The notes under the pieces are model-generated. The model had not been told where the DNA came from. It saw only the letters and a list, made by a program, of their open reading frames with translations, and made no database searches. This document shows positions 1,616 to 63,869 of a DNA stretch of 64,000 nt, piece after piece. Made by a program: the position numbers and the translations under genes. The DNA lies in assembly GCA_947169685.1 (NCBI GenBank), contig CAMVQS010000003.1:20023-84022 (forward strand), in the 5' to 3' direction. Origin of the DNA: an uncultured Prevotella sp. (GTDB lineage Bacteria; Bacteroidota; Bacteroidia; Bacteroidales; Bacteroidaceae). The number at the start of each line of letters is the position of its first letter. Within the stretch, counting starts at the first letter, position 1.

Positions 1616-2012
1616 ATAAATTGTTCTCTAACATCAAAATAAATGTGAATAAAAATATTACAATCCTACATTATTCACTCCTATCCCTCCGTAAATCCAT
1701 AACTCCGATAATCCATCTTCCATCTTACACCCGCCTTCATACATCAGACATATTCCACAATCCCGATTGCTTCTTCCGTCAAGCCTTGGCATTTTCACAA
1801 GGAGCCCATCCTATTGGAACTCGTCAAGAATGGATCATCAGAACCGTCCCGCTTTCTGAAGCGAAATGAATTTCAAATGCGGAGGTGTGGCCTGACTTCG
1901 CCGAATTCACGCGGCAAAGATACAAAATAATTTTGAAATTCAATCACAATTTTAATAATAAATGCGACAGTTGGCCGTATTTTGATGCGACAGTTGGCCG
2001 TATTTTGATGCG
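1616..2012. other. Intergenic stretch with an orphan minus-strand promoter-like site
   Basis: No convincing gene is present; the plus-strand ORF of 198 codons (1273-1869) is antisense to the ATPase and has no recognisable content. On the minus strand, TATCTTTG (1915-1922) lies 18 bases after a TTG (1941-1943), a plausible promoter firing left into about 300 bases without an ORF. This could be the remains of a lost gene, or make an untranslated RNA. Confidence 0.4.
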
Positions 2013-2022
2013 ACAGTTGGCC
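1963..2022. repeat. Three tandem copies of a 23-bp repeat after the left traX
   Basis: The unit TGCGACAGTTGGCCGTATTTTGA occurs twice in full and once as its first 14 bases, directly downstream of the left traX stop codon. The same motif in inverse orientation (about ACACGGCCAACTGTCGCATC) follows the right traX at 11621-11663. The repeats therefore belong to the outer ends of the mirrored island. Confidence 0.8.
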
Positions 2023-2034
2023 TTCTTTTACGCA

Positions 2035-2718
2035 TCAAGTAGTAAGCCAGTACGTGCGGAGCAGGTAGAGCAGCAGGAGGTGGAGAGGGTAGAAGGCGTA
2101 GAAGAAGTACTTGCCGAAGGAACCGGTGATGAATCCGCGCTTGCCGTTATACAGCGCCAGCAGGGCGAAGCCCGCTGCCACACCAGGAATATATCGCCTT
2201 GCAATGATGCAAGTACCTAAGAACAACTTCAGCACCTTCTGTTCACGCAGCACGTAGAGCAGCAAGATAAGGCCCACGCCACCTATATTATAATCCACCT
2301 TCAGGACATACGCTGCGAGGAATACCGTTATGAGCGCAAGCGTCTGCCGCATCCAGTTTTCTTTCATATACTCCCAGAGATACAGCGTCAGGAAACCCAA
2401 CAGCAGCGTGAACCCCACGTTGCCGTGCAGCCAGAACTTACTGTTGAGGTGTGCCAATGCCCACGGAGCTTGCGACACAAGGGCAAACACCAGCAGGTTA
2501 CGTCCATATTTCCTGCGGTCATGAGTATGGATGAACCCCTCCACCAGCAAGAAGGCAAACACAGGGAATGCCACACGTCCCACGGTGTGCATCAGCCGGC
2601 ACAGCTCCGGCCATTGGTGAAGCACGGGCAAGTACGATGCCGCATGGTCAATCGCCATTGTCACCATCGCAATGACCTTCAGCCAACTGCCGTTGAGTAT
2701 TTGGTAGTTATTGGACAT
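2035..2718 (-). CDS. traX: TraX-family membrane acyltransferase-like protein, left copy
   Basis: A 227-residue integral membrane protein starting 'MSNNYQILNGSWLKVIAM'; the ORF track extends it upstream, but this ATG (2716-2718) matches the right copy and overlaps the end of the PP-loop gene by 11 bases, indicating translational coupling. The family signatures 'AMVTMAIDH', 'GRVAFPVFAFLLVEG' and 'HGNVGFTLLLG' fit the TraX family (PF05857). In F-type conjugation TraX N-acetylates pilin. Here it closes a peptide-biosynthesis operon, so acylation of the peptide or of the partner lipoprotein is an attractive inference. It differs from the copy at 10926-11612 at only about eight residues, and the downstream two-thirds looks virtually identical in DNA, so the pair forms a 0.68-kb inverted repeat. 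Confidence 0.85.
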   Translation of the reverse strand: MSNNYQILNGSWLKVIAMVTMAIDHAASYLPVLHQWPELCRLMHTVGRVAFPVFAFLLVEGFIHTHDRRKYGRNLLVFALVSQAPWALAHLNSKFWLHGNVGFTLLLGFLTLYLWEYMKENWMRQTLALITVFLAAYVLKVDYNIGGVGLILLLYVLREQKVLKLFLGTCIIARRYIPGVAAGFALLALYNGKRGFITGSFGKYFFYAFYPLHLLLLYLLRTYWLTT

Positions 2719-3460
2719 GGGAATCTTTTTTCTTTTTCTCTTTCTTCTTAAACATATTCTTGATGTTATAGAGTATCTTCCCCGTAATAGGGATCTTAAC
2801 CCCTTCCTTCTCAAAGGAACGACAAGGAAGACAATGTCCACAAGGGAATCCCCAGACAGGCTTCAGACACGACCATGTATGCTTTACCACATTTTTGTAT
2901 CCCATAGCATACAGTTCTTCTATTTCCTCCTTCTTCGTTTTATGGTACAACGACTTGGGGAAATAGAAATGTCCGAACAGATTAATAACATCTTGGTCTG
3001 CTCGTGTTTTATCAATCATTAGCACATCGTAATCTGCATCAGGATGTGGAATGAGTAGTGTCTCATCTATTGCTTTGACAATGGTCCCGTTTGGAGAGAA
3101 CTGAAGCCCCATTTCCATCATTAAGTTGTTATGTGCCGCATATTTAGCAAGCCAGTAGTATTGTAGGCTGCTTGTACCTTTTCCAGGAAAAAGGTACATC
3201 CATGAATCAAAGATCTGGTTATTTTTAGCTATATCTTTCTCTTCTATGAGGATAATGTCTGACAATGTTGCACGAGTCTTATTATCTTTTCGCAATAAAT
3301 GGACTATTTTATCCATCGCATGCAGTTCCTGTTGCAAGGATTTCCTTTTTCCTACGATATAATATGGCTGTATGATGCATTCACGACGAGACAGCTCTAC
3401 TATTCGATAGGTGCTGTCTAATCCTCCTGTCCACAATATGTTAATGTGCCTATTCTCCAT
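2708..3460 (-). CDS. QueC-like PP-loop ATPase (putative peptide-tailoring enzyme)
   Basis: The 250-residue protein has an N-terminal PP-loop 'WTGGLDSTYR' (residues 10-19), the pyrophosphate-binding motif of the N-type ATP pyrophosphatase superfamily. Near the C-terminus 'TWSC' (C198) and 'CGHCLPC' (C207, C210, C213) reproduce the four-cysteine zinc site of QueC (7-cyano-7-deazaguanine synthase). The central sequence does not look like orthodox QueC, the tail is Lys-rich, and no other queuosine gene is nearby. It overlaps the radical SAM gene by 11 bases and traX by 11 bases, so it belongs to the left peptide operon, in the slot held by an HprK-like kinase in the right one. QueC turns a carboxylate into an amide and then a nitrile using ATP; analogous carboxylate chemistry on a peptide is inference. 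Confidence 0.75.
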   Translation of the reverse strand: MENRHINILWTGGLDSTYRIVELSRRECIIQPYYIVGKRKSLQQELHAMDKIVHLLRKDNKTRATLSDIILIEEKDIAKNNQIFDSWMYLFPGKGTSSLQYYWLAKYAAHNNLMMEMGLQFSPNGTIVKAIDETLLIPHPDADYDVLMIDKTRADQDVINLFGHFYFPKSLYHKTKKEEIEELYAMGYKNVVKHTWSCLKPVWGFPCGHCLPCRSFEKEGVKIPITGKILYNIKNMFKKKEKKKKDSHVQ

Positions 3461-4772
3461 CTTTATAGACTATGTATTGCTCCAGCATGCCTTCTTCTAT
3501 CTTACGAATATTCTCTCTACGTATGTCTTCATAGCAGACATTGTCTTCTGAACAAATTAAAAGCCTATTACATTGTGGATAATATACGCAGTCTTTACAT
3601 ATTATTTCATCTTTGGGACGTTCTTTGAAACGGTTAATCACCGCTAAATTGTTTTCTTCAGTATTGATATGACCATAGAATTCGCTATCTATGTAGTGCT
3701 CACATTTCCCCAAATATCCATTTGGGGTTATCACAACACTTCTGTCATTATCTGCCATACAGTGATTCACTCTAAATTTCGTAGGAAGTTTCGGTTTGGT
3801 TTTATAATGATAGTTTTTTATAAGTTGTTCTAGCTCCATTCGTTGCTTGTATATTACATTTCGTTCTTCCTGTGTTCGTTTGGTATTTCCTTCTATGTAG
3901 TCAAATAATACATGAGAGTAGATTGTTAAAAAGCTATTCTCGCCAAATCGCTCGTGAAGTTCTCTTACCAGAGTGAACATGTTGTCAATGTTATGCTTAT
4001 CCACATTCAACCGGATAATTACCTTGATTTCGGCAGCAGTTAGTTTTCCAATGTTATCTAACACCTGCTGATAAGCGTTTCCATCCTTATAGATATACCG
4101 CTTACTACGATTATAGATTTCTTCAGTACCATCAAGTGTAATCTGCACTTTTTTTAGTTTCCAAAGTTGCTTGGCACGTTGAATAACATTGTCATCGAAC
4201 AAATAGCCATTACTTACCATAGTGGAAGTCAGTTTAATTCCACTATCCTTCAGTTGCTGGCAAATAATGTCAATAACATGAACATTATATAACGGTTCAC
4301 CCCCAAACCAACGAATATGTATATCATTGTTTTGCTGTCTAACAATGAACTGCGCAACCCGCTTAGCTGTCTCTATGCTCATGTGGATGTGGGCTGCATT
4401 TTTTTCAAAACAGTAAAAACAACGGGCATTACAATCTGAAGTAGGAAGGATAACAAAATTATCCATTCCTGTATTTTTCTTTTCAAAAAGCATTGCCATT
4501 GACTTCACCTGCTTACAAAGTTTTTTGTCATCGTGGTCTTGTGGAACTAAAAACCATAATTCAAATAGTTCATCTAATTCCATGAGGTGCTGAGCCTCTT
4601 CTTTGTTTAGCCATACTAAGCATAGTGTGAGAGTATTATAAATCAACAACCCATCTTCAACATGTTGTTGTATAACATATGTTAACAGACGAAGAGGGAA
4701 TTGGTCTTCTTTTCGTTTTTGCTGTCCAATAATCTTATCTACTATAGTAGTAGGAGGGATAATAATCTGCAT
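3450..4772 (-). CDS. Radical SAM/SPASM peptide maturase, left operon
   Basis: I start at the internal ATG 4772 ('MQIIIPPTT'), not at the ORF-track start, because the right-hand paralogue begins 'MQIIQPP' and this ATG falls 1 base past the lipoprotein stop. The radical SAM cluster motif 'CNARCFYC' lies at residues 114-121, followed by 'WFGGEPLYN' (SAM binding) and 'SNGYLF'. The C-terminal third has 'GKCEHY', then 'CKDCVYYPQC' and 'CSEDNVCYED', a SPASM domain expected to hold auxiliary Fe-S clusters. Enzymes of this build install thioether or C-C crosslinks, or epimerise residues, in ribosomal peptides. The substrate is probably the 42-residue peptide at 5828-5956. The N-terminal region of about 100 residues may recognise the leader; no separate RRE gene is visible. 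Confidence 0.9.
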   Translation of the reverse strand: MQIIIPPTTIVDKIIGQQKRKEDQFPLRLLTYVIQQHVEDGLLIYNTLTLCLVWLNKEEAQHLMELDELFELWFLVPQDHDDKKLCKQVKSMAMLFEKKNTGMDNFVILPTSDCNARCFYCFEKNAAHIHMSIETAKRVAQFIVRQQNNDIHIRWFGGEPLYNVHVIDIICQQLKDSGIKLTSTMVSNGYLFDDNVIQRAKQLWKLKKVQITLDGTEEIYNRSKRYIYKDGNAYQQVLDNIGKLTAAEIKVIIRLNVDKHNIDNMFTLVRELHERFGENSFLTIYSHVLFDYIEGNTKRTQEERNVIYKQRMELEQLIKNYHYKTKPKLPTKFRVNHCMADNDRSVVITPNGYLGKCEHYIDSEFYGHINTEENNLAVINRFKERPKDEIICKDCVYYPQCNRLLICSEDNVCYEDIRRENIRKIEEGMLEQYIVYKDGE

Positions 4773-4773
4773 A

Positions 4774-5805
4774 TTATTCCAAAGCAACTCCACCTAAACC
4801 GACCTCCGAATCGTAAGGAGTAACATAGGCAGAGGGGGTCGTTGTTAAAGCTAATCCAGTAAAGGCTATTCCTCGAACTGTGCCCCTTTCCCAATTACGT
4901 GAATCACTATTATCCAATGTCATTGTCTGTGAATAACAATTACCATTAGAATCCCATACATAAGCTGTTATGGTTTTTCCTCGTAAATCTATAGGGGGAA
5001 CAACTAGATAGGCCGTTAACACATTCTTGGTAGCCAGAGGGGCACTCTTAATTAGTACATATACGAAATTGGTGTTATTCTCTGCTATGAATGGTTGAGA
5101 TTCTGGAGTATGTTTGCCATTCGCATTTTTATGAACATCAAACAAATCAAAGTATCCCTTTTGGGGGAAACCGTTATAATCAATTGCTAATACGACCTTA
5201 CGGTAATCTGCATTAGTTGGAGCATAGCACTGAAATCTTAATATACATGCCATGTTTCTTAGCGAAGCATGGAAAGTTCCATTATCTGCACGTGTGGTGT
5301 CTGTCGCTTCAAAAATATGCTCTCCCAAATGTTCGTGGTTGGTATTAACTGATTGTATTTGAGGTTTGCCGTAATCCCATGGAATCCTATTATAATTTCG
5401 GTTGTAAAAATTAAAAGGCAAGTATGTTGAATACATAATACCATCCTTAGTCATCCATCCTTGCGCTTCAATAAGTACTCCCGATGCTGTTTCCCCTTCT
5501 TTTAATGGTAAAACAAATGGTATTTGATAACCACCGTCGGGGAAAATACCCAAAGTATCCGTATGCTCAAAAAGTATACCAATATTTTGCCCCGTACCAG
5601 TAGTAGTTGCACGGGTTGTAACCAAGGAGTCGTTATTTTGTTCATCTATGGAAGGCTCGAGCTTACTGGAGTCCAAGGGAAGTCTACTGACAATAATGTG
5701 ATCTACACGACTATAACCTGTCCATTCGTCTACATTTGTTGAACACGACACAACAAGACAGATGAACAATTGAGAAACAAAGCAATTTTTAAAATAACGC
5801 CTCAC
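4774..5805 (-). CDS. Fimbrillin-like lipoprotein of the left peptide operon
   Basis: A 343-residue exported protein with a hydrophobic segment ending in a lipobox-like 'LVVSC' (C21). After a variable linker come 'VTTRATTTG', resembling the T-R-A site of fimbrillins, and 'DTLGIFPDGGYQIPF', typical of Mfa-like/fimbrillin folds. The right-operon partner (7736-8734) shares this block, the 'GWMTKDGIMYSTYLPF' region and a closing 'G-V-A-[LI]-E'. It lies 22 bases after the precursor peptide and abuts the maturase gene. A surface lipoprotein encoded between precursor and maturase suggests that the peptide is displayed on, carried by or sensed through a pilus-like subunit; that role is inference. Confidence 0.7.
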   Translation of the reverse strand: MRRYFKNCFVSQLFICLVVSCSTNVDEWTGYSRVDHIIVSRLPLDSSKLEPSIDEQNNDSLVTTRATTTGTGQNIGILFEHTDTLGIFPDGGYQIPFVLPLKEGETASGVLIEAQGWMTKDGIMYSTYLPFNFYNRNYNRIPWDYGKPQIQSVNTNHEHLGEHIFEATDTTRADNGTFHASLRNMACILRFQCYAPTNADYRKVVLAIDYNGFPQKGYFDLFDVHKNANGKHTPESQPFIAENNTNFVYVLIKSAPLATKNVLTAYLVVPPIDLRGKTITAYVWDSNGNCYSQTMTLDNSDSRNWERGTVRGIAFTGLALTTTPSAYVTPYDSEVGLGGVALE

Positions 5806-5827
5806 TAAAAAACGGAGTTAATGAATA

Positions 5828-5956
5828 TCAAAGACCATCACAGCTATTTGTTGGGCAATCACCGTTACACTCCTCCTGAGAGGCTGAAAGAATTCCAATA
5901 GTCATGTTCAGCTTAATCTCCTCCATCTCGGGAGTTTCATACATCTTCTTTTCCAT
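5828..5956 (-). CDS. Putative RiPP precursor peptide A (not in the ORF track)
   Basis: A 42-residue peptide beginning 'MEKKMYETPEMEEIKL', a charged leader of the K-x-Y-x-T-P-E type common to Bacteroidales radical SAM precursors. It continues with 'GILSAS' and a Cys-rich tail 'CNGDCPTNSCDGL' (C30, C34, C39). The first 16 residues are identical to peptide B at 7588-7719, while the tails have nothing in common except three cysteines: conserved leader, divergent core. The start is preceded by an A-rich stretch (AAGAAAAACGTAAT) typical of this phylum instead of a strong Shine-Dalgarno. Upstream of its conserved 5' UTR, no -7 box is seen in the present orientation, so it may be silent. That it is a modified, secreted peptide is inference from the neighbours. 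Confidence 0.8.
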   Translation of the reverse strand: MEKKMYETPEMEEIKLNMTIGILSASQEECNGDCPTNSCDGL

Positions 5957-6076
5957 ATTACGTTTTTCTTGTTCGTGCTCCCTGTTCCCTTTAAGGAGCG
6001 GTTATCTTTACTGCGGCCGTGGGAACTCCGACCCATCATTTCTTACATACTGCCATCCACCTCGCGGCCCGAGGTG
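5904..6076. repeat. Inverted repeat arm, left (about 172 bp; UTR plus leader codons)
   Basis: The reverse complement of this stretch matches 7466-7637 over its whole length with only a few differences, concentrated just upstream of the start codon (GAGCACGAACAAG versus GAGCCAGAAAAAAG). It covers the 5' UTR and the first 16 codons of the precursor, then homology ends abruptly. Confidence 0.9.
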
Positions 6077-6082
6077 GATATC

Positions 6083-6215
6083 TTGTTCCCACCGTGGGAA
6101 CAGATTGAAAGGTGCCGTGTAAGGGTTCGTTACATACTATGTAAGGCACCCTTACATAGGGGTTAACGACCCGAAAGTCGGTATGTTTCGGTGCGAAAGT
6201 CGGTATGTTTCGCCG
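6083..6215. repeat. Dispersed non-coding repeat, copy 1
   Basis: This begins with the palindrome TGTTCCCACCGTGGGAACA, then runs through 'GGTGCCGTGTAAGGGTTCG', the palindrome TTACATACTATGTAA and 'GGGGTTAACGACCCG', and ends in tandem units of CGAAAGTCGGTATGTTTCGG. The reverse complement of 63726-63869 repeats it nearly base for base apart from about 15 bases in the middle. It lies directly outside the left inverted-repeat arm, where the right operon has its promoter. Confidence 0.85.
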
Positions 6216-6242
6216 GAACAGGTCAAGACCTCAAGCGACAAC

Positions 6243-6427
6243 CCTGAAACATCGATGTACACAGCGTTTGAGGTATAGGGGGTGTTGGCATAAGACCCCC
6301 CATACACCTCCCATACACCCCCCATACACTCCATAGATCTGTCAACATGAGGTCTATGGGGGGTGTATGTGAGATCTTACCATAACACCCCCTATACCTC
6401 AAACGCTGTGTACATCGACATTTCAGA
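6243..6427. repeat. Nested palindromic element (MITE-like)
   Basis: Perfect 35-bp arms (6252-6286 and 6384-6418) containing GAGGTATAGGGGGTGTT extend imperfectly to about 45 bp. Inside are further inverted pairs (CCATAGA/TCTATGG) and C-rich direct repeats 'CCCATACAC'. No frame carries a transposase. A small non-autonomous element or a large RNA hairpin are both possible; the ORF-track entries here are products of the repeat. Confidence 0.65.
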
Positions 6428-6532
6428 CGGCCATAGGAGTATGTGGGGTGTTTCTCAAAATTCTGATTCACTCCCAGCCCCCTGTGTTTCAATAAACAAT
6501 GCCATGCACCGAGAGAAGTATGTTGAAAAAGT

Positions 6533-6625
6533 GTTTTTTAATTAAATTCTAACCTGGCAAACCATCTTTTTATCACTTTTTCCCGAAATTGTTTGGCGGT
6601 TCAGAAAAGTATTCATAACTTTGCC
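6533..6625 (+). repeat. 93-bp promoter-bearing direct repeat, copy 1
   Basis: The sequence from GTTTTTTAATTAAATTC through CTTTGCC recurs at 7360-7452 with about five mismatches. Each copy ends in a complete promoter. The two copies flank the toxin-antitoxin pair, so recombination between them would delete the pair and leave one promoter. Confidence 0.9.
6592..6623 (+). promoter_or_regulatory. Promoter of the PIN toxin-antitoxin pair
   Basis: TTTG (6592-6595), 20 bases, then TAACTTTG (6616-6623): a full match to the Bacteroidetes -33/-7 pattern, 28 bases upstream of the antitoxin ATG. Confidence 0.8.
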
Positions 6626-6651
6626 AACAAGAAAACAACAAAAGAGATATT

Positions 6652-6939
6652 ATGACAGCTTTAGCAAAGAAAATATCAGAAACGCCTATGGCCCCATACA
6701 CAGAACTTTTGCGAAGTATGAAGCCGCAAGAGATACGCATTGTTGTTACCTTTTTGCAAGAGGCATTGCAAGAGGCAGAAGGGGTAAATCCAGAAGCAAA
6801 TGTCTCTGAGATTATCCGCAACAAGTTTAAAGGCCTTACCATCTCGCAGGAGACCAAGGATCTCGTGCGAGACCTTTCGTTGTCTTCAGAAGAAATGGGT
6901 GATGAAAGAACACAATACATTTTAGGGTATAGACAATGA
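6652..6939 (+). CDS. Antitoxin-like protein paired with a PIN toxin
   Basis: A 95-residue, charged, probably helical protein with no membrane segment. Its gene ends in a 4-base ATGA overlap with the PIN-domain gene, the usual antitoxin-toxin arrangement. The family is not recognisable beyond the pattern 'EIRIVVTFLQEAL' and 'VSEIIRNKF'. By analogy with VapB-type proteins it would bind the toxin and its own promoter, though no ribbon-helix-helix or AbrB motif is evident. It has its own promoter and lies inside the potentially invertible segment, between two copies of a direct repeat, so it may act as a stability module for the peptide locus; that purpose is inference. Confidence 0.7.
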   Translation: MTALAKKISETPMAPYTELLRSMKPQEIRIVVTFLQEALQEAEGVNPEANVSEIIRNKFKGLTISQETKDLVRDLSLSSEEMGDERTQYILGYRQ

Positions 6940-7349
6940 CAAAGGTTTTTCTTGATACAAACATCTTGATGGACTTTGTTGAAAATCGTGAAAGACGAGA
7001 ATATGCTGAGACCATCATTGAGCTTGGGAAAACAGGTGTAATACAGCTTTATGCCTCATATCTGTCGTATGCCAACATGGGGTATGTCCTACGTCACCGT
7101 AGCCAAGAAGAGCGCTACCGTATGATTAATAATGCTCGTAAAATTGCAACTGTGTTGCCATGTGACTCAGACCAGCTTGACAGCACTTTGGAAAAGCCTG
7201 TGAAAGACTACGAAGACATGCTGCAGTATCAATGCGCGTTGGCAGCAGGATGTGATGTCATAGTAACAAATAACAAACGTGACTTTTTCGAGTTTTGCAA
7301 GTTACCATTTCTTACTTCGGAAGAATTCCTGTTGCAGATTGATTTTTGA
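6936..7349 (+). CDS. PIN-domain ribonuclease toxin (VapC-like)
   Basis: The 137-residue protein starts with 'KVFLDTNILMDF', the first acidic motif of PIN nucleases. It continues with a helical middle and then 'DYEDMLQYQCALAAGCDVIVTNNKRDF', which carries the remaining acidic residues and the T-N-x-x-D-F signature. PIN toxins cleave tRNA or rRNA with Mg or Mn. Length is normal for the family and all expected acidic positions are present, so it should be active. Translation is coupled to the upstream antitoxin by a 4-base overlap. No other gene follows before the second direct repeat begins 11 bases downstream. Confidence 0.85.
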   Translation: MTKVFLDTNILMDFVENRERREYAETIIELGKTGVIQLYASYLSYANMGYVLRHRSQEERYRMINNARKIATVLPCDSDQLDSTLEKPVKDYEDMLQYQCALAAGCDVIVTNNKRDFFEFCKLPFLTSEEFLLQIDF

Positions 7350-7359
7350 GCGTATGGCC

Positions 7360-7452
7360 GTTTTTTAATTAAATTCTAACCTGGCAAACCATCTTTTTAT
7401 TACTTTTTCCCGAAATTGTTTGGCTGTTCAGAAAAGTATTTGTACCTTTGCC
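7360..7452 (+). repeat. 93-bp promoter-bearing direct repeat, copy 2
   Basis: Second copy of the 6533-6625 sequence, 827 bases further on. It ends 14 bases before the right inverted-repeat arm and supplies the promoter of peptide operon B. Confidence 0.9.
7419..7450 (+). promoter_or_regulatory. Promoter of peptide operon B
   Basis: TTTG (7419-7422), 20 bases, then TACCTTTG (7443-7450). Transcription should begin a few bases later, inside or just before the right inverted-repeat arm, giving a 5' leader of about 130 bases. No equivalent promoter precedes operon A. Confidence 0.8.
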
Positions 7453-7465
7453 CTCGAAATGTGTA

Positions 7466-7637
7466 CACCTCGGGCCGCGAGGTGGATGGCAGTATGTAAA
7501 AAATGATGGGTCGGAGTTCCCACGGCCGCAGTAAAGATAACCGCTCCTCAAAGGGAACAGGGAGCCAGAAAAAAGTATAAACGTAATATGGAAAAGAAGA
7601 TGTATGAGACTCCCGAGATGGAGGAGATTAAGCTGAA
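7466..7637. repeat. Inverted repeat arm, right (about 172 bp; UTR plus leader codons)
   Basis: Mirror copy of 5904-6076. Within the transcribed leader are a hairpin CACCTCGGGCCGCGAGGTG (7466-7484) and a second possible pairing of GTTCCC (7516-7521) with GGGAAC (7553-7558). Both stems are kept in the left copy, so the RNA fold may matter for expression. Confidence 0.9.
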
Positions 7638-7719
7638 GATGGAAAAGAGCCTGATGGGATGTGTTGAAGTTGGTACGACTTCTGATGTGGATTGTGATGA
7701 ATTTTGTGAAGAAGACTAA
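7588..7719 (+). CDS. Putative RiPP precursor peptide B (not in the ORF track)
   Basis: A 43-residue peptide with the leader 'MEKKMYETPEMEEIKL', identical to that of peptide A, followed by 'KMEKSLMGC' and an acidic tail with cysteines at C25, C36 and C40 ('DVDCDEFCEED'). Divergent core behind a constant leader, immediate proximity to a radical SAM/SPASM gene and an A-rich translation start all argue for a real precursor. The tail lacks a double-glycine; 'LMG' before the first Cys is a candidate cleavage region. It lies 137 bases downstream of a strong promoter and 16 bases ahead of the lipoprotein gene, so it is the first gene of operon B. Modification type is unknown; Cys thioether crosslinks are a reasonable first guess. 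Confidence 0.8.
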   Translation: MEKKMYETPEMEEIKLKMEKSLMGCVEVGTTSDVDCDEFCEED

Positions 7720-7735
7720 TGATTCATTCTGTTGA

Positions 7736-8734
7736 ATGAGATTGTCGTTGACGGTATTGAGACCTATTTCCTTGTGTCTGTTTTGCGTTATGTTTGTCAT
7801 AGCGTGTAACAGTCAAGAGGATTCATACACTTTGGTGAAAGAGATTAAATTGACCATTGAAGACATGGAAATAGGTGAACTAGATGATTCTATTTCTGCA
7901 AACGAAATTATTACTCGTTCAATCTTAGAAAATGACGGATCAAAAGTTTCATATCTTTTTGAAGATCATGACACCATCGGTATTTTTCCCGAGGGAGGTT
8001 TTGAGATCCCTTTTATAGTTGAAATACCAGATTTAGTGCCAACAAAAGAGGTTACTCTTATTGCGAATGGTTGGCGTACTAAGGATGGAGTGAAGTATTG
8101 CTCATATCTGCCTTTTGACCGATACAACTTTGACTACTCTAATCGTGTTCCATGGAGATTTGCAGGAATAAGACAAAATGGAAACAAAGACGGAGTAAAA
8201 ACAGGTTCTAAGAATTCTCTATTCTTGGCAACACGCCCTACGGAAACGACTCCAGAAGGGCTCTTTAATGCGGCTTTTACACATATGGGGACTATTGTAC
8301 GCGCTAATTACAAACTTGCAACTGTAGGGACCTTTAAAAAGGCATGCATTGTAGCGCCAACGGCTCGATTTGCCTTAAATGGCACTTATGATCTTTATGC
8401 AGACGGACAACCTTTTACACCAGGAGAAATGAGTAATCATTTCGACGTCATGCTGGATAACTTAACAACAACTGCAAGTTCCACCAACGTTTATGTTTAT
8501 TATATTCTATCACCAGATATCAGCAATGCTAGCGGTGACCAGTTGATAGGCTACATATGGGATGACAACGGCATACGATACAGAGGGGTTTATACGTTTT
8601 CCAAAGCTACAGTATGGAAGCGGAATGGCTTTGCCACCATTAGTTTTACAATGGAACGAGAATCAAACAACCTTGATGTTTATCAAAATGAATTCAGTAC
8701 GGAATCGGAATTTAACGGTGTCGCTATAGAATAA
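7736..8734 (+). CDS. Fimbrillin-like lipoprotein of the right peptide operon
   Basis: A 332-residue protein with a signal peptide ending in the lipobox 'FVIAC' (C24). Residues about 80-125 ('DTIGIFPEGGFEIPF', 'GWRTKDGVKYCSYLPF') match the left-operon partner and, more loosely, the fimbrillin array at 16-31 kb; 'IITRSIL' occupies the T-R-[AS] position. It ends in 'FNGVAIE', like 'LGGVALE' in the left copy, suggesting a conserved C-terminal strand. It sits between precursor and maturase, with 13 bases to the latter. It should be anchored in the outer membrane. Whether it presents the modified peptide, protects the producer or is itself modified cannot be decided from sequence. Confidence 0.7.
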   Translation: MRLSLTVLRPISLCLFCVMFVIACNSQEDSYTLVKEIKLTIEDMEIGELDDSISANEIITRSILENDGSKVSYLFEDHDTIGIFPEGGFEIPFIVEIPDLVPTKEVTLIANGWRTKDGVKYCSYLPFDRYNFDYSNRVPWRFAGIRQNGNKDGVKTGSKNSLFLATRPTETTPEGLFNAAFTHMGTIVRANYKLATVGTFKKACIVAPTARFALNGTYDLYADGQPFTPGEMSNHFDVMLDNLTTTASSTNVYVYYILSPDISNASGDQLIGYIWDDNGIRYRGVYTFSKATVWKRNGFATISFTMERESNNLDVYQNEFSTESEFNGVAIE

Positions 8735-8747
8735 TAGAATTTTCTCT

Positions 8748-10067
8748 ATGCAAATTATTCAACCCCCATCTCCACTAATAGATGGTTTACTGAAATCTCA
8801 GAAATATCATATAGGAACAGAATACCGATTGATAACGTATGCTATAAAGCTACTGGTACCAGAAGGCGTTTTGCTTTACAATTTACTGACCAAATGCATT
8901 GTATTATGCCAACAAGAAGACTTGAAGGCAGCTTCAGCGGATAATCCGCTCATACAATATTGGTTTTTAGTTCCAGAAAAACACGATGACCAGCGACTCT
9001 GTGAACAGATAAGAAGTGCTCTACAACTGATTCAAAAAAAAGAGAATTTCATTTCTGGGTATTGTATATTTACGACTACTGTTTGTAATGCACGTTGTTT
9101 CTATTGTTTTGAACGTGGTAGCAAGGAACGGACGATGAATGATGAAATAGCTGCAAAGGTGGTTGACTATATCGCACAGAATGCATGTGGCCATCAAGTG
9201 CGCTTTCGCTGGTTTGGTGGAGAACCTCTCTACAACATGCAGGCTATTGATAATATATGCGATGGACTTAAGAGACGAGGTGTTGATTATGTTTCTAAGA
9301 TGGTTAGCAATGGATATTTGTTTAATGAAAACGTAATCAAAAGAGCTGCGACATTATGGAAGTTGGATAAAATCCAGATAACCCTTGACGGAACAGAAGA
9401 AAAATACAATCGTATTAAAAACTATAAGGATAATAGAGAGAGTGCCTATCTGCGAGTAATGAAAAATATCGGCTTGCTGTTGGAATATGGTATCCGGGTC
9501 GTTATTCGCCTGAACATTGATGCCATCAACATTGAGGATATGACTTGTCTGGTTCATGAGCTACATACTCGCTATGGTGGAAATAAATTGCTTTCAGTTT
9601 ATTCACGTACTTTGTTTGAAAATAAAGGATGTGTTCGCAAAAGAAGCAATGAGGAGCGAGCACTTCTTTGTAATCAGCAAATAGAATTGGAAAAACTTAT
9701 TTACGGATACAATTTGAATGAAGCCCCATCAAATTTACGAAAAGTTTGGGTGAATGCCTGCATGGCAGACACCTCGCATACTATCACAATATTACCAGAC
9801 GGAAAACTGGGAAAGTGTAATGATTATTTGGAGAGTCACTTTGTCGGAACGCTCGACGAGGGAATCACAGACGAAAAGATGGTGCAAGCATTTACGCTTC
9901 AACGGGAGCCATTAGCCGATTGTAGGTCTTGTGCTCTTCAACCAGATTGCCTTAGATTACAGCTATGCATGGAAAAAGAACACTGCTACGTTGAAGAAAG
10001 AAGAATCAAGGTGTTTCGTATTCAGCAAATGATGTTGAAAACATTTGAGAAAAACAAGGCAGTATGA
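8748..10067 (+). CDS. Radical SAM/SPASM peptide maturase, right operon
   Basis: The 439-residue enzyme carries 'CNARCFYC' at residues 113-120, 'FRWFGGEPLYNMQ' and 'SNGYLF', and C-terminal SPASM cysteines ('GKCNDY', 'CRSCALQPDC', 'CMEKEHCYVEE'). It is a clear paralogue of the left-operon enzyme along its full length, with best agreement around the cluster motifs. It overlaps the next gene by the 4 bases ATGA. The predicted substrate is precursor B, whose leader is identical to that of precursor A; each maturase could therefore act on either peptide if leader recognition dominates. It is cytoplasmic; the product chemistry is not predictable beyond a radical crosslink or epimerisation. Confidence 0.9.
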   Translation: MQIIQPPSPLIDGLLKSQKYHIGTEYRLITYAIKLLVPEGVLLYNLLTKCIVLCQQEDLKAASADNPLIQYWFLVPEKHDDQRLCEQIRSALQLIQKKENFISGYCIFTTTVCNARCFYCFERGSKERTMNDEIAAKVVDYIAQNACGHQVRFRWFGGEPLYNMQAIDNICDGLKRRGVDYVSKMVSNGYLFNENVIKRAATLWKLDKIQITLDGTEEKYNRIKNYKDNRESAYLRVMKNIGLLLEYGIRVVIRLNIDAINIEDMTCLVHELHTRYGGNKLLSVYSRTLFENKGCVRKRSNEERALLCNQQIELEKLIYGYNLNEAPSNLRKVWVNACMADTSHTITILPDGKLGKCNDYLESHFVGTLDEGITDEKMVQAFTLQREPLADCRSCALQPDCLRLQLCMEKEHCYVEERRIKVFRIQQMMLKTFEKNKAV

Positions 10068-10933
10068 GAACAATTCTTTCATACAGAATAGCAGGAATAG
10101 ATTTTGCAATAAATATAGAAAAAGAGGCTATTGAACAAAATCTGCTAAATCACTACAACTCTTTTAGAATAGAAGGAACAAAAGAATTTGATTTTGTACT
10201 GGACATCGTCAACCGACAGGAAAGAATGGAAGGTGAACAGATTCTTGGCGGTGACAAGATAAGAAGCCAGATATATCGGGTACAGAACGGTTACTATAAG
10301 GAGGCGTTAGGCAGAGAGAGGAGAAGAGTGTTGTATGCAATATATTTAAATAGCAATTATAGCTATGGAAGGTTGAAAATAAATCAGCATACTCGTACTA
10401 TATTGAACGAAGCCATTATGACCATGTTTTTTGCTGCAATGGCCAAATTCCACGTAATAAAAATTCATGCATCGTCTGTCATTAAGGATGGCAAAGCCAT
10501 TCTCTTTCATGCGCCATGTGGTACAGGTAAGAGTACGCATAGTCAGCAATGGATGAAGGCATTTCCTGATGCGGAACTGTTGAATGATGATGGACCCGTA
10601 GTACGCGTATGGCCTGACGGAAGGGTGATTGCATACGGCAGTCCTTGGAGTGGGAAAACTCCTTGCTACAAAAACCTATCGGCACCTGTAGCTGCATTTG
10701 TACGTATCAACAGGGCTAAAGAAAACAAGATTCATCGCCTAAGACTTGTGGAGGCATATGCATCATTACTTCCTTCCTGTACTGGAGTAAAGTGGAATGA
10801 TGATATACGCAATTATACACATGAAACCATGCAAAAGGTAATATCAACCGTTCCCTTTTATCAATTGGACTGCCTACCCAACGAGGACGCTGCAAGGGTA
10901 TGTGCAGCGGAAGTATTGAAACTACATGAATAG
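10064..10933 (+). CDS. HprK-like P-loop kinase of the right peptide operon
   Basis: The 289-residue protein has a Walker A 'PCGTGKST' at residues 151-158, then 'LLNDDGPVVR' at about 172-181 and 'YGSPWSGKTP' at 191-200. These are the hallmarks of HPr kinase/phosphorylase-related proteins found in many peptide-biosynthesis clusters. The N-terminal 110 residues are not the HprK N-terminal domain. In some lasso-peptide clusters HprK-type kinases phosphorylate the peptide, so phosphorylation of peptide B or its carrier is a fair inference. It is coupled to the maturase by a 4-base overlap and to traX by an 8-base overlap. Its position matches that of the unrelated PP-loop gene in the left operon. 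Confidence 0.8.
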   Translation: MRTILSYRIAGIDFAINIEKEAIEQNLLNHYNSFRIEGTKEFDFVLDIVNRQERMEGEQILGGDKIRSQIYRVQNGYYKEALGRERRRVLYAIYLNSNYSYGRLKINQHTRTILNEAIMTMFFAAMAKFHVIKIHASSVIKDGKAILFHAPCGTGKSTHSQQWMKAFPDAELLNDDGPVVRVWPDGRVIAYGSPWSGKTPCYKNLSAPVAAFVRINRAKENKIHRLRLVEAYASLLPSCTGVKWNDDIRNYTHETMQKVISTVPFYQLDCLPNEDAARVCAAEVLKLHE

Positions 10934-11612
10934 CAATAACTACCAAATACTGAGTGGAAGCTGGCTGAAGGTCATCGCGATGGTGACGATGGCGATTGAC
11001 CATACGGCATCGTACCTGCCTGTGCTTCACCAATGGCCGGAACTGTGTTGGCTGATGCACACTGTGGGACGTGTGGCATTCCCCGTGTTTGCCTTCTTGC
11101 TGGTGGAGGGATTTGTCCATACCCATGATCGCAGGAAGTACGGACGGAACCTACTGGTACTTGCCTTGGTGTCACAGACTCCGTGGGCATTGGCACACCT
11201 CAACAGTAAGTTCTGGCTGCACGGCAACGTGGGGTTCACGCTGCTGTTGGGTTTCCTGACGCTGTATCTCTGGGAGTATATGAAAGAAAACTGGATGCGG
11301 CAGACGCTTGCGCTCATAACGGTATTCCTCGCAGCGTATGTCCTGAAGGTGGATTATAATATAGGTGGCGTGGGCCTTATCTTGCTGCTCTACGTGCTGC
11401 GTGAACAGAAGGTGCTGAAGTTGTTCTTAGGTACTTGCATCATTGCAAGGCGATATATTCCTGGTGTGGCAGCGGGCTTCGCCCTGCTGGCGCTGTACAA
11501 TGGCAAGCGCGGATTCATCACAGGTTCCTTCGGCAAGTATCTTTTCTACGCCTTCTACCCTCTCCACCTCCTGCTGCTCTACCTGCTCCGCACATACTGG
11601 CTTACCACTTGA
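10926..11612 (+). CDS. traX: TraX-family membrane acyltransferase-like protein, right copy
   Basis: A 228-residue membrane protein almost identical to the left copy, with the same 'MVTMAIDH', 'FAFLLVEG' and 'HGNVGFTLLLG' blocks and the same C-terminus 'LLRTYWLTT'. It starts inside the kinase gene (8-base overlap), so in both operons the last gene is a translationally coupled traX. Retention at the same place in two operons with different tailoring enzymes makes a shared job likely, for example acylating the peptide N-terminus as TraX does to F pilin. The long identical DNA stretch suggests recent gene conversion or inversion between the copies. Confidence 0.85.
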   Translation: MNSNNYQILSGSWLKVIAMVTMAIDHTASYLPVLHQWPELCWLMHTVGRVAFPVFAFLLVEGFVHTHDRRKYGRNLLVLALVSQTPWALAHLNSKFWLHGNVGFTLLLGFLTLYLWEYMKENWMRQTLALITVFLAAYVLKVDYNIGGVGLILLLYVLREQKVLKLFLGTCIIARRYIPGVAAGFALLALYNGKRGFITGSFGKYLFYAFYPLHLLLLYLLRTYWLTT

Positions 11613-11616
11613 TGCG
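11591..11616. repeat. 26-bp direct repeat, left of the HipBA module
   Basis: CACATACTGGCTTACCACTTGATGCG here covers the last codons and stop of traX. It recurs perfectly at 13339-13364, where it contains the end of an outer-membrane protein gene. The 1.75 kb between the copies consists of two short repeats plus the hipBA-like genes. Confidence 0.9.
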
Positions 11617-11620
11617 GAGG

Positions 11621-11663
11621 AAACACGGCCAACTATCGCATCAAAACACGGCCAACTGTCATA
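11621..11663. repeat. Two copies of the ACGGCCAACTGTCGCATCAAA repeat after the right traX
   Basis: AAACACGGCCAACTATCGCATC is followed by AAAACACGGCCAACTGTCATA; this is the inverse of the 23-bp repeat at 1963-2022 and marks the outer edge of the mirrored island. Confidence 0.75.
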
Positions 11664-11664
11664 A

Positions 11665-12918
11665 TCAGGACTTCACTCGGCTGTCTAATCGTTGGGCGAA
11701 TCGGTTTTGTTCTGATGGGGATATTTTGAGTTCATTGGCAACTTTCCTCCAATCCCTGACTGCCGTTTTTGTCTTCTCTATGATTCTTGCTGCTGTGTCT
11801 GGAGAAAGGAAATAGTCTTTACAGGCATCTTGCAACTTCTCGAGACTTGCTTCATTCGAGTTGTTATTGATGAGCAGGCTTTGATTGTTACTGTCAGTCG
11901 GGTTAAGGTCATAGGCTGGGGATAATGTCCAACCTTTCTTCGTCAAGAGAAATCCGTGGTTTCGGAAATGATCGTCACTATTGCCCACACAAATGTTAAA
12001 TACCACACGTCGAAATAGCTCTTCAAGATTGTCATCGACATTGACACAATTGGAAAGAATAAAATCTACAATATCCAAATAGCCATGTCCTGTTTCGAAG
12101 TTGTCTCCGTCCTTTAAGCCTGTCATAGTCATGGCAGAAGCAAAATGGATCCGACGGCATGCTTCTGTTCTATCGAATCGTCTTGAGAGCAGTGCATGAT
12201 ATCTACCAACCGGCAGTATTGCCGTTTCTGCTGCGTTTATGGATGCAGACTTTGCCAAGACATGACAGAAATGCTCCCATAGAGCTACATCATACAGGTC
12301 ATTACGTGAAGGAAACTTTGCAATCCACAAACCTCCGTTTTCGTCGGTTACATTGGCTTTCGGTCGAGCACCGCCCAAAGATGTGCCTGGGCGTTCTAAT
12401 TGCCTGATCCATTTCTTTTCAGGCAATTCATTAGCCTCCTCGCTCTTCTCATATTCCTGAGCTATTGCTGTCAGCTCTTTTACTGAGGTTAATGGCGGTA
12501 CAGACAATCTATTATCCGAATTGACAAATTCTCCATTAGGATCCTTCTTAAATCGAAGGCCTCCCATACGGGTGTAATCATCAATACCTTTTAGGTAGTC
12601 AAAAGAGTAAAGTGACCTTACTGCTCTCTTTTCCTCTGCTGCCTCAACCTGCTCTTTCCTGTCCAGCAAACGACGTCCCCATCTGTCAGGAAGTGTATCA
12701 GAGATACAGCCAAAAACATGTTCCTCTTGAGAATACTGGAAGCCTGCATAATTGCCGATTTCATCACTCAAGACAATGGCACTATGATTCTTCAACCATT
12801 CTTTTTCAAAACAGAAACCGTAAGTACCATTACCACGCAGACGTTCATACGTCAGACAGCCAACCAACTCGGGGTTGTCTAGCCAGTCGAAATCGGCATA
12901 CACATAGAGTTTTTCCAT
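11665..12918 (-). CDS. hipA: HipA-like serine/threonine kinase toxin
   Basis: The 417-residue protein has a HipA N-terminal subdomain, then 'SLGGARPKANV' (residues 180-190, nucleotide loop), 'WIAKFPS', the catalytic 'GNSDDHFRNHGFLL' (N313, D316 region) and the metal-binding 'LSPAYDLNP' (333-340). HipA of E. coli phosphorylates glutamyl-tRNA synthetase and induces dormancy; all key positions are present, so activity is expected. The gene lies 3 bases downstream of a HipB-like repressor and shares its promoter. It runs tail-to-tail with the right traX, with 52 bases between the stops. The target of this homologue is unknown. Confidence 0.9.
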   Translation of the reverse strand: MEKLYVYADFDWLDNPELVGCLTYERLRGNGTYGFCFEKEWLKNHSAIVLSDEIGNYAGFQYSQEEHVFGCISDTLPDRWGRRLLDRKEQVEAAEEKRAVRSLYSFDYLKGIDDYTRMGGLRFKKDPNGEFVNSDNRLSVPPLTSVKELTAIAQEYEKSEEANELPEKKWIRQLERPGTSLGGARPKANVTDENGGLWIAKFPSRNDLYDVALWEHFCHVLAKSASINAAETAILPVGRYHALLSRRFDRTEACRRIHFASAMTMTGLKDGDNFETGHGYLDIVDFILSNCVNVDDNLEELFRRVVFNICVGNSDDHFRNHGFLLTKKGWTLSPAYDLNPTDSNNQSLLINNNSNEASLEKLQDACKDYFLSPDTAARIIEKTKTAVRDWRKVANELKISPSEQNRFAQRLDSRVKS

Positions 12919-12921
12919 AGC

Positions 12922-13242
12922 TTAATCTTTTTTCGAGGCTCGTTCACGATGTTTCAACTCCAAGTCTTGAAGTGTTCTCCCGAGAGGATCGTCCTTGGCC
13001 AGCGATAAGATATCGTCATCTAACTGCAAAGCATAGAGAATACGCAGATAAATACCTATAGCGACGGTAGGCATACCTTTCTCCACACGCATCACGGTCA
13101 GCTCAGAGCACGTGGCCCTTTCTGCAATTTGGGCAACACTAAGATTACGACGCAGACGAGCCAGACGTATCTGTTCGCCGACAATCTGCATCTTTTGCTC
13201 CAATCTCCTTGGTAATTTCGTACTACGTGTTGCCTTTGTCAT
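12922..13242 (-). CDS. hipB: HipB-like XRE-family antitoxin/repressor
   Basis: A 106-residue protein with a helix-turn-helix of the Cro/CI type at about residues 28-60 ('IRLARLRRNLSVAQIAERATCSELTVMRVEKG'). The acidic patch 'LDDDILSLAKDDPLG' and a basic tail follow. It is the first gene of the pair and should both neutralise HipA and repress the operon by binding the inverted repeat at 13252-13299. Length and order are normal for hipBA. Confidence 0.88.
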   Translation of the reverse strand: MTKATRSTKLPRRLEQKMQIVGEQIRLARLRRNLSVAQIAERATCSELTVMRVEKGMPTVAIGIYLRILYALQLDDDILSLAKDDPLGRTLQDLELKHRERASKKD

Positions 13243-63725: not shown

Positions 63726-63869
63726 ACCGACTTACGCACCGAAACATACCGACTTTCGCACCGAAACATACCGACTTTCGGGTCGTTAACCCCTATGTAA
63801 GGAGGCCTTTCCTACTATGTAACGAACCCTTACACGGCACCTTTCAATCTGTTCCCACGGTGGGAAAGC
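63726..63869. repeat. Dispersed non-coding repeat, copy 2
   Basis: Inverse of the repeat at 6083-6215: three tandem units CCGAAACATACCGACTTTCG, then GGGTCGTTAACCCC, a variant centre GGAGGCCTTTCC, GAACCCTTACACGGCACC and TGTTCCCACGGTGGGAAA. The 300 bases from 63600 to 63900 hold no gene. Confidence 0.85.

Follow-up and report, generated by a model that had tools for sequence, protein, structure and literature searches.

Introduction

Invertons of the Bacteroidales, such as the capsule loci of Bacteroides fragilis and those in the PhaseFinder sets, place a promoter between inverted repeats of 10-40 nt, which are recombined by site-specific invertases that are often encoded nearby (PMC11892184, PMC8748976). 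The promoter consensus in this order is -33 TTTG / -7 TANNTTTGY (PMC8748976). Long repeats are used by the pneumococcal spnIII locus (hsdS), where inversion at repeats of 333, 85, and 15 bp proceeds without RecA or known site-specific recombinases (PMC6620402). In rumen Prevotella, radical SAM/SPASM operons for Cys-rich peptides (nearest model TIGR04463) encode a leader-bearing short peptide and a radical SAM maturase, often with an HprK-related gene, and duplications of leader and enzyme are common.

The window analyzed here, 64,000 nucleotides from an uncultured Prevotella sp., contains two operons related to the latter in a mirror arrangement. Like the invertons, the locus has a promoter of the -33/-7 type that is bracketed by inverted repeats and can face an operon downstream. 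Unlike them, its repeats are long and imperfect, no invertase lies near, and the core between them contains genes. Long repeats are shared with spnIII; however, spnIII switches protein segments, whereas a promoter is concerned here, and inversion has been measured for spnIII, whereas the present locus is known from one assembled orientation alone. The duplicates found in the rumen Prevotella peptide loci are direct repeats, in contrast to the inverted head-to-head pair described below.

Results

Organization of the two operons

Operons A and B lie back to back and are transcribed away from each other (Table 1). The best NCBIfam model for both maturases was TIGR04463, with scores of 139.5 and 130.3 bits. 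Because these values fall below the curated cut-off of 525 bits, the enzymes are, judged by sequence, relatives of the TIGR04463 radical SAM/SPASM RiPP maturases and not members by that model. Homologues of the operon A lipoprotein-like protein adjoin the radical SAM gene in two related loci (L071 and L080). In the latter, from Prevotella sp. AGR2160, the peptide, lipoprotein-like, and radical SAM genes follow one another as they do here, and numerous direct repeats occupy the intergenic DNA around them.

The source assembly comprises 2.59 Mb in 109 contigs and is 82% complete; the locus is on the 84-kb contig C3. Because the related radical SAM loci came mostly from metagenome bins of rumen Prevotella and Bacteroidales, the host is presumably a rumen-type Prevotella.

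Table 1. Features of the two operons, the repeats, and the core, in positions of the window
Feature	Position	Strand	Basis or remark
Outer left arm, mostly TraX gene (PF05857)	1989-2713	-	Alignment with right outer arm
Operon A QueC-like protein	2708-3460	-	Weak PF06508 match, just below cut-off
Operon A radical SAM maturase, SPASM-like Cys-rich C terminus	3450-4793	-	PF04055, E 5e-14
Operon A lipoprotein-like protein	4774-5805	-	28% identical to operon B protein
Operon A precursor peptide, 42 aa	5828-5956	-	ORF; leader common to operon B
Inner left arm, operon A 5' UTR and leader codons	5903-6076	-	Alignment with right arm
Dispersed intergenic repeat and palindrome	6086-6440	none	Adjoins left arm
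Direct-repeat copy D1, with TAnnTTTG box ahead of toxin-antitoxin-like pair	6533-6625	+	
Antitoxin-like small protein, 95 aa	6652-6939	+	Overlaps PIN gene
PIN-domain toxin-like protein, 137 aa	6936-7349	+	PF13470, E 1.5e-17
Direct-repeat copy D1', with operon B promoter	7360-7452	+	95% identical to 6533-6625
-7 box TACCTTTG of operon B promoter	7443-7450	+	Match to Bacteroidales consensus
Inner right arm, operon B 5' UTR and leader codons	7466-7641	+	Alignment with left arm
Operon B precursor peptide, 43 aa	7588-7719	+	ORF
Operon B lipoprotein-like protein	7736-8734	+	ORF; 28% identical to operon A protein
Operon B radical SAM maturase, SPASM-like Cys-rich C terminus	8748-10067	+	PF04055, E 8e-13
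Operon B HprK-related protein	10064-10933	+	TIGR04352, E 7.5e-06, below cut-off
Operon B TraX gene	10926-11612	+	Pfam TraX PF05857, E 2e-37
Outer right arm, mostly TraX gene	10934-11660	+	Alignment with left outer arm

Inner arms and promoters

A sequence-only reading of the window had described an inverted repeat that covers both 5' UTRs and leader codons and encloses 1.39 kb. Pairwise alignment bore this out. The arms measure 174-176 nt and agree in 165 of 176 aligned columns (94%, 2 gap columns), with perfect runs of 34, 48, 16, 29, and 29 nt, and the spacer or core between them (6077-7465) has 1,389 bp. The match is far beyond chance; within the 8 kb compared, most other inverted pairs measured 20-30 nt with 72-90% identity. 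The arms span the 5' UTR and the first ~18 leader codons of the two divergent radical SAM RiPP-type operons. On one side their homology ends at the core peptide, and on the other 15 nt past the operon B -7 box. Because the leader codons are identical in both peptides, a crossover in the arms would leave both coding frames intact, as had been claimed.

The promoter of operon B was found where the same reading had placed it. The box TACCTTTG lies 15 bases inside of the right arm with TTTG ~20 nt upstream, fits the Bacteroidales consensus, and thus stands between inverted repeats and faces a gene outside them. The reported lack of a -7 box ahead of operon A was also reproduced: on the strand facing operon A, a motif search found no exact TAnnTTTG within 700 nt, and the sole sigma-70-like site in 5700-7750 points away from operon A. 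Judged by the motif, only operon B has a recognizable promoter in the assembled state, which suggests that operon B is probably on and operon A off or weak. Of 20 related peptide genes, 14 had a TAnnTTTG box within 300 nt upstream; on the opposite strand, the count was 6 of the 20. Because the remaining 6 genes have no such box upstream within this distance, a missing consensus box does not prove a missing operon A promoter.

These 6 genes agree with a reading in which nothing switches and nothing has been lost: operon A would use a non-consensus promoter, and the arms would be alike through a common leader and a functional 5' UTR. Leaders conserved between neighboring peptides in related loci fit as well. 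However, the arm UTR matched no Rfam family and folded no better than shuffled sequences (z -0.87), and searches of other genomes with the arm returned only fragments resembling promoters and a single leader-like stretch that was unrelated. The TraX arms described below would also be left unexplained by selection on the UTR, and we consider this reading unlikely.

Several further candidates were rejected. One was that the arms contain a known RNA element: the weak Rfam matches all fell on a 183-bp palindrome in the core and stayed under the gathering scores. A match resembling the leader, from another genus (L186/L187), belonged to a small peptide without radical SAM, lipoprotein, or TraX genes. 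The arm-end palindrome CACCTCG-N5-CGAGGTG, considered as a genome-repeated recombination site, occurred only at the two arms and at two sites with 1 mismatch. Viral contigs searched with the arm sequence gave no match.

Content of the core

The sequence-only reading had missed four elements: the direct repeat D1, the PIN pair, the dispersed repeat with its palindrome, and the outer inverted repeat. D1 and D1' are 93 nt long and 95% identical, contain a -7 box each, and flank the toxin-antitoxin-like pair. Profile searches gave no family match for the antitoxin-like protein, the homologues of which adjoin PIN homologues in five other members of the genus. D1 as the ancestral promoter of the pair gained no support; it showed 15-18 matches to the upstream boxes of the relatives' pairs, not above generic promoters (mean 16.2 matches, 95th percentile 21). 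In locus L137 (G417:C75:16000-31000), a TraX gene (48%) adjoins a homologue of the pair (75%) in a different arrangement.

The dispersed repeat occupies the expected site of an operon A promoter. It includes the 183-bp palindrome (6244-6426; arms of 76 nt, 86% identical), the fold of the region has a z score of -13.6, and ~28 partial matches were found in the same genome. Another copy is present at 63740-63866, and the family has tandem 22-bp units (GAAAGTCGGTATGTTTCGGTGC) as well as palindromes. A role of the repeat as a marker of gene 3' ends only was discarded, as its copies were found in mixed positions relative to genes.

Outer TraX arms

TraX is the last gene of both operons, and the outer arms formed by it are 94% identical (681 of 727 columns). 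A tract of 319 nt is perfectly identical, and all 46 differences fall in the remaining 408 columns; when these were placed at random 200,000 times, such a run never arose. Unless it was created during assembly, the tract suggests that the two sides have recently exchanged sequence. Since a perfect inverted repeat of 319 nt may exceed the assembly k-mers, assembly could account for the tract and for the way in which the 8.2 kb enclosed by the two TraX genes is oriented.

Repeat collapse in the draft assembly might have made the mirror structure or the TraX tract, since the genome is fragmented and the perfect run exceeds k-mer lengths in common use. However, many mismatches separate the inner arms and likewise the D1 copies, with no perfect run above 48 nt, and these elements are embedded in the 84-kb contig with intact frames. 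The TraX copies also show 46 differences beyond the tract. An artefact of this kind is very improbable.

Outside the tract, the dN/dS value between the TraX copies was 0.06 (bootstrap 0.025-0.12), indicating strong purifying selection, and for this reason both copies look maintained. Because, in addition, all five reading frames of operon A are open, this operon does not look long dead. A DNA-level search found only these two TraX copies in the incomplete genome, and of 12 further copies inspected in the genus, none adjoins such an operon.

At the outer ends of the locus, 23-bp tandem repeats (ATGCGACAGTTGGCCGTATTTTG) were observed at 1962-2030 and 11621-11660, adjoining a minus-strand TAnnTTTG box at ~1910-1917. 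Similar stretches (78-90%) exist in several other members of the genus, not beside the AAA-ATPase gene found here. A HipA-like kinase (PF07804) and its upstream helix-turn-helix partner (11665-13242) follow directly beyond the right outer arm.

Ancestry of the two operons

In contrast to the ends, the middles of the operons are strongly diverged. The two radical SAM genes share 42% amino acid and 52% DNA identity, with 10 of 38 fourfold sites identical, and the lipoprotein-like proteins share 28% amino acid identity. In a tree of 44 maturases, the operon A enzyme grouped with 12 enzymes of rumen Bacteroidales (98/93) and the operon B enzyme branched elsewhere, on a long branch (1.03) that calls for caution. 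A clade of both enzymes was rejected in this 44-protein tree with a p-AU value of 0.029, which is a moderate value. Ends of 94% identity next to radical SAM genes of 52% DNA identity are the pattern of an inverted duplication with homogenized ends.

Related loci (n = 79) were compared with themselves. Maturase and leader duplications were numerous and all were direct repeats; the inverted repeats present lay elsewhere in the locus or were local palindromes. A head-to-head pair with a common UTR and leader and with common TraX ends was absent from the related loci searched and was found here only. Among the genomes searched, there was also no relative with the locus as before homogenization.

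Search for recombinases and for a second orientation

No tyrosine or serine recombinase is encoded on the contig of the locus. In the genome (82% complete), integrase matches occurred only on contigs C50, C19, and C13, and no resolvase was found. DNA searches for the operon pair in other genomes of the genus were negative in 398 genomes and in 277 genomes, the latter being those that pass a 90% completeness filter and overlapping the former. The locus was likewise absent from a 399-genome draw of the family, searched with a 535-bp query only. One contig end appeared to hold a flipped junction (C33:56-266, matching 6118-6329), but its flank was unrelated and it proved to be a copy of the dispersed repeat.

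Discussion

The sequence-only reading had proposed a promoter-inversion switch, in which crossing over at the inner arms would reverse the 1.39-kb core, and the single promoter would drive operon B or A depending on the state. Its geometry and promoter asymmetry stood; the flipping itself gained no support, with no recombinase on the contig and arms diverged by ~6%. The proposal is attractive in that a promoter lies just inside one arm and none faces the other, and in that the arms extend over the transcribed leader region only and leave both frames intact. The open genes of operon A, the purifying selection on TraX, and the 319-nt tract, which suggests recombination between the two sides, are consistent with it, and spnIII provides a precedent for inversion at long repeats. 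However, arms with perfect runs of at most 48 bp would probably serve fast switching by homologous recombination poorly. The locus has neither the short recognition repeats nor the nearby site-specific invertase of known Bacteroidales invertons, no serine recombinase was detected in the incomplete genome, and no second orientation was seen in the one assembly. The toxin-antitoxin-like pair and the dispersed repeat have no obvious role in a switch. Neither the outer TraX arms nor the pairing of old enzymes with young ends is predicted by switching, whereas homogenization of the ends accounts for both. We therefore regard the switch as doubtful. The same low probability applies to an invertible core that carries the toxin-antitoxin-like pair and whose promoter, by way of long homologous arms formed by the common 5' UTR and leader and with no dedicated invertase, alternates between two RiPP operons of unrelated origin.

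We lean, by a little, toward a different origin: head-to-head RiPP-type cassettes of different ancestry, the common ends of which were homogenized by recombination or between which one middle was swapped in. Two such operons would have come to lie head to head with both ends in common, namely the 5' UTR and leader codons in the inner arms and the terminal TraX gene in the outer arms. The middles, with core peptide, lipoprotein, radical SAM maturase, and QueC- or HprK-like gene, would be old and divergent. The ends would be young, homogenized through repeated recombination between the inverted copies; alternatively, one middle may have been replaced between common ends. Homogenization of the ends or replacement of a middle is suggested because the ends are far more alike than the middles. 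With such a history, a crossover within the inner arms would still be possible by geometry and would hand the promoter to operon A with the frames intact. Because the arms are only 174-176 bp long and 94% identical, inversion is possible but probably rare.

If the core flips, the locus would switch a promoter between two RiPP peptides without an invertase, an arrangement of which a limited literature search found no earlier description. Such a switch would let a rumen Prevotella choose which modified peptide to make. Even without flipping, two maturation cassettes of different ancestry have here come to share one leader and one terminal gene, an outcome relevant to the exchange of leader-enzyme pairings.
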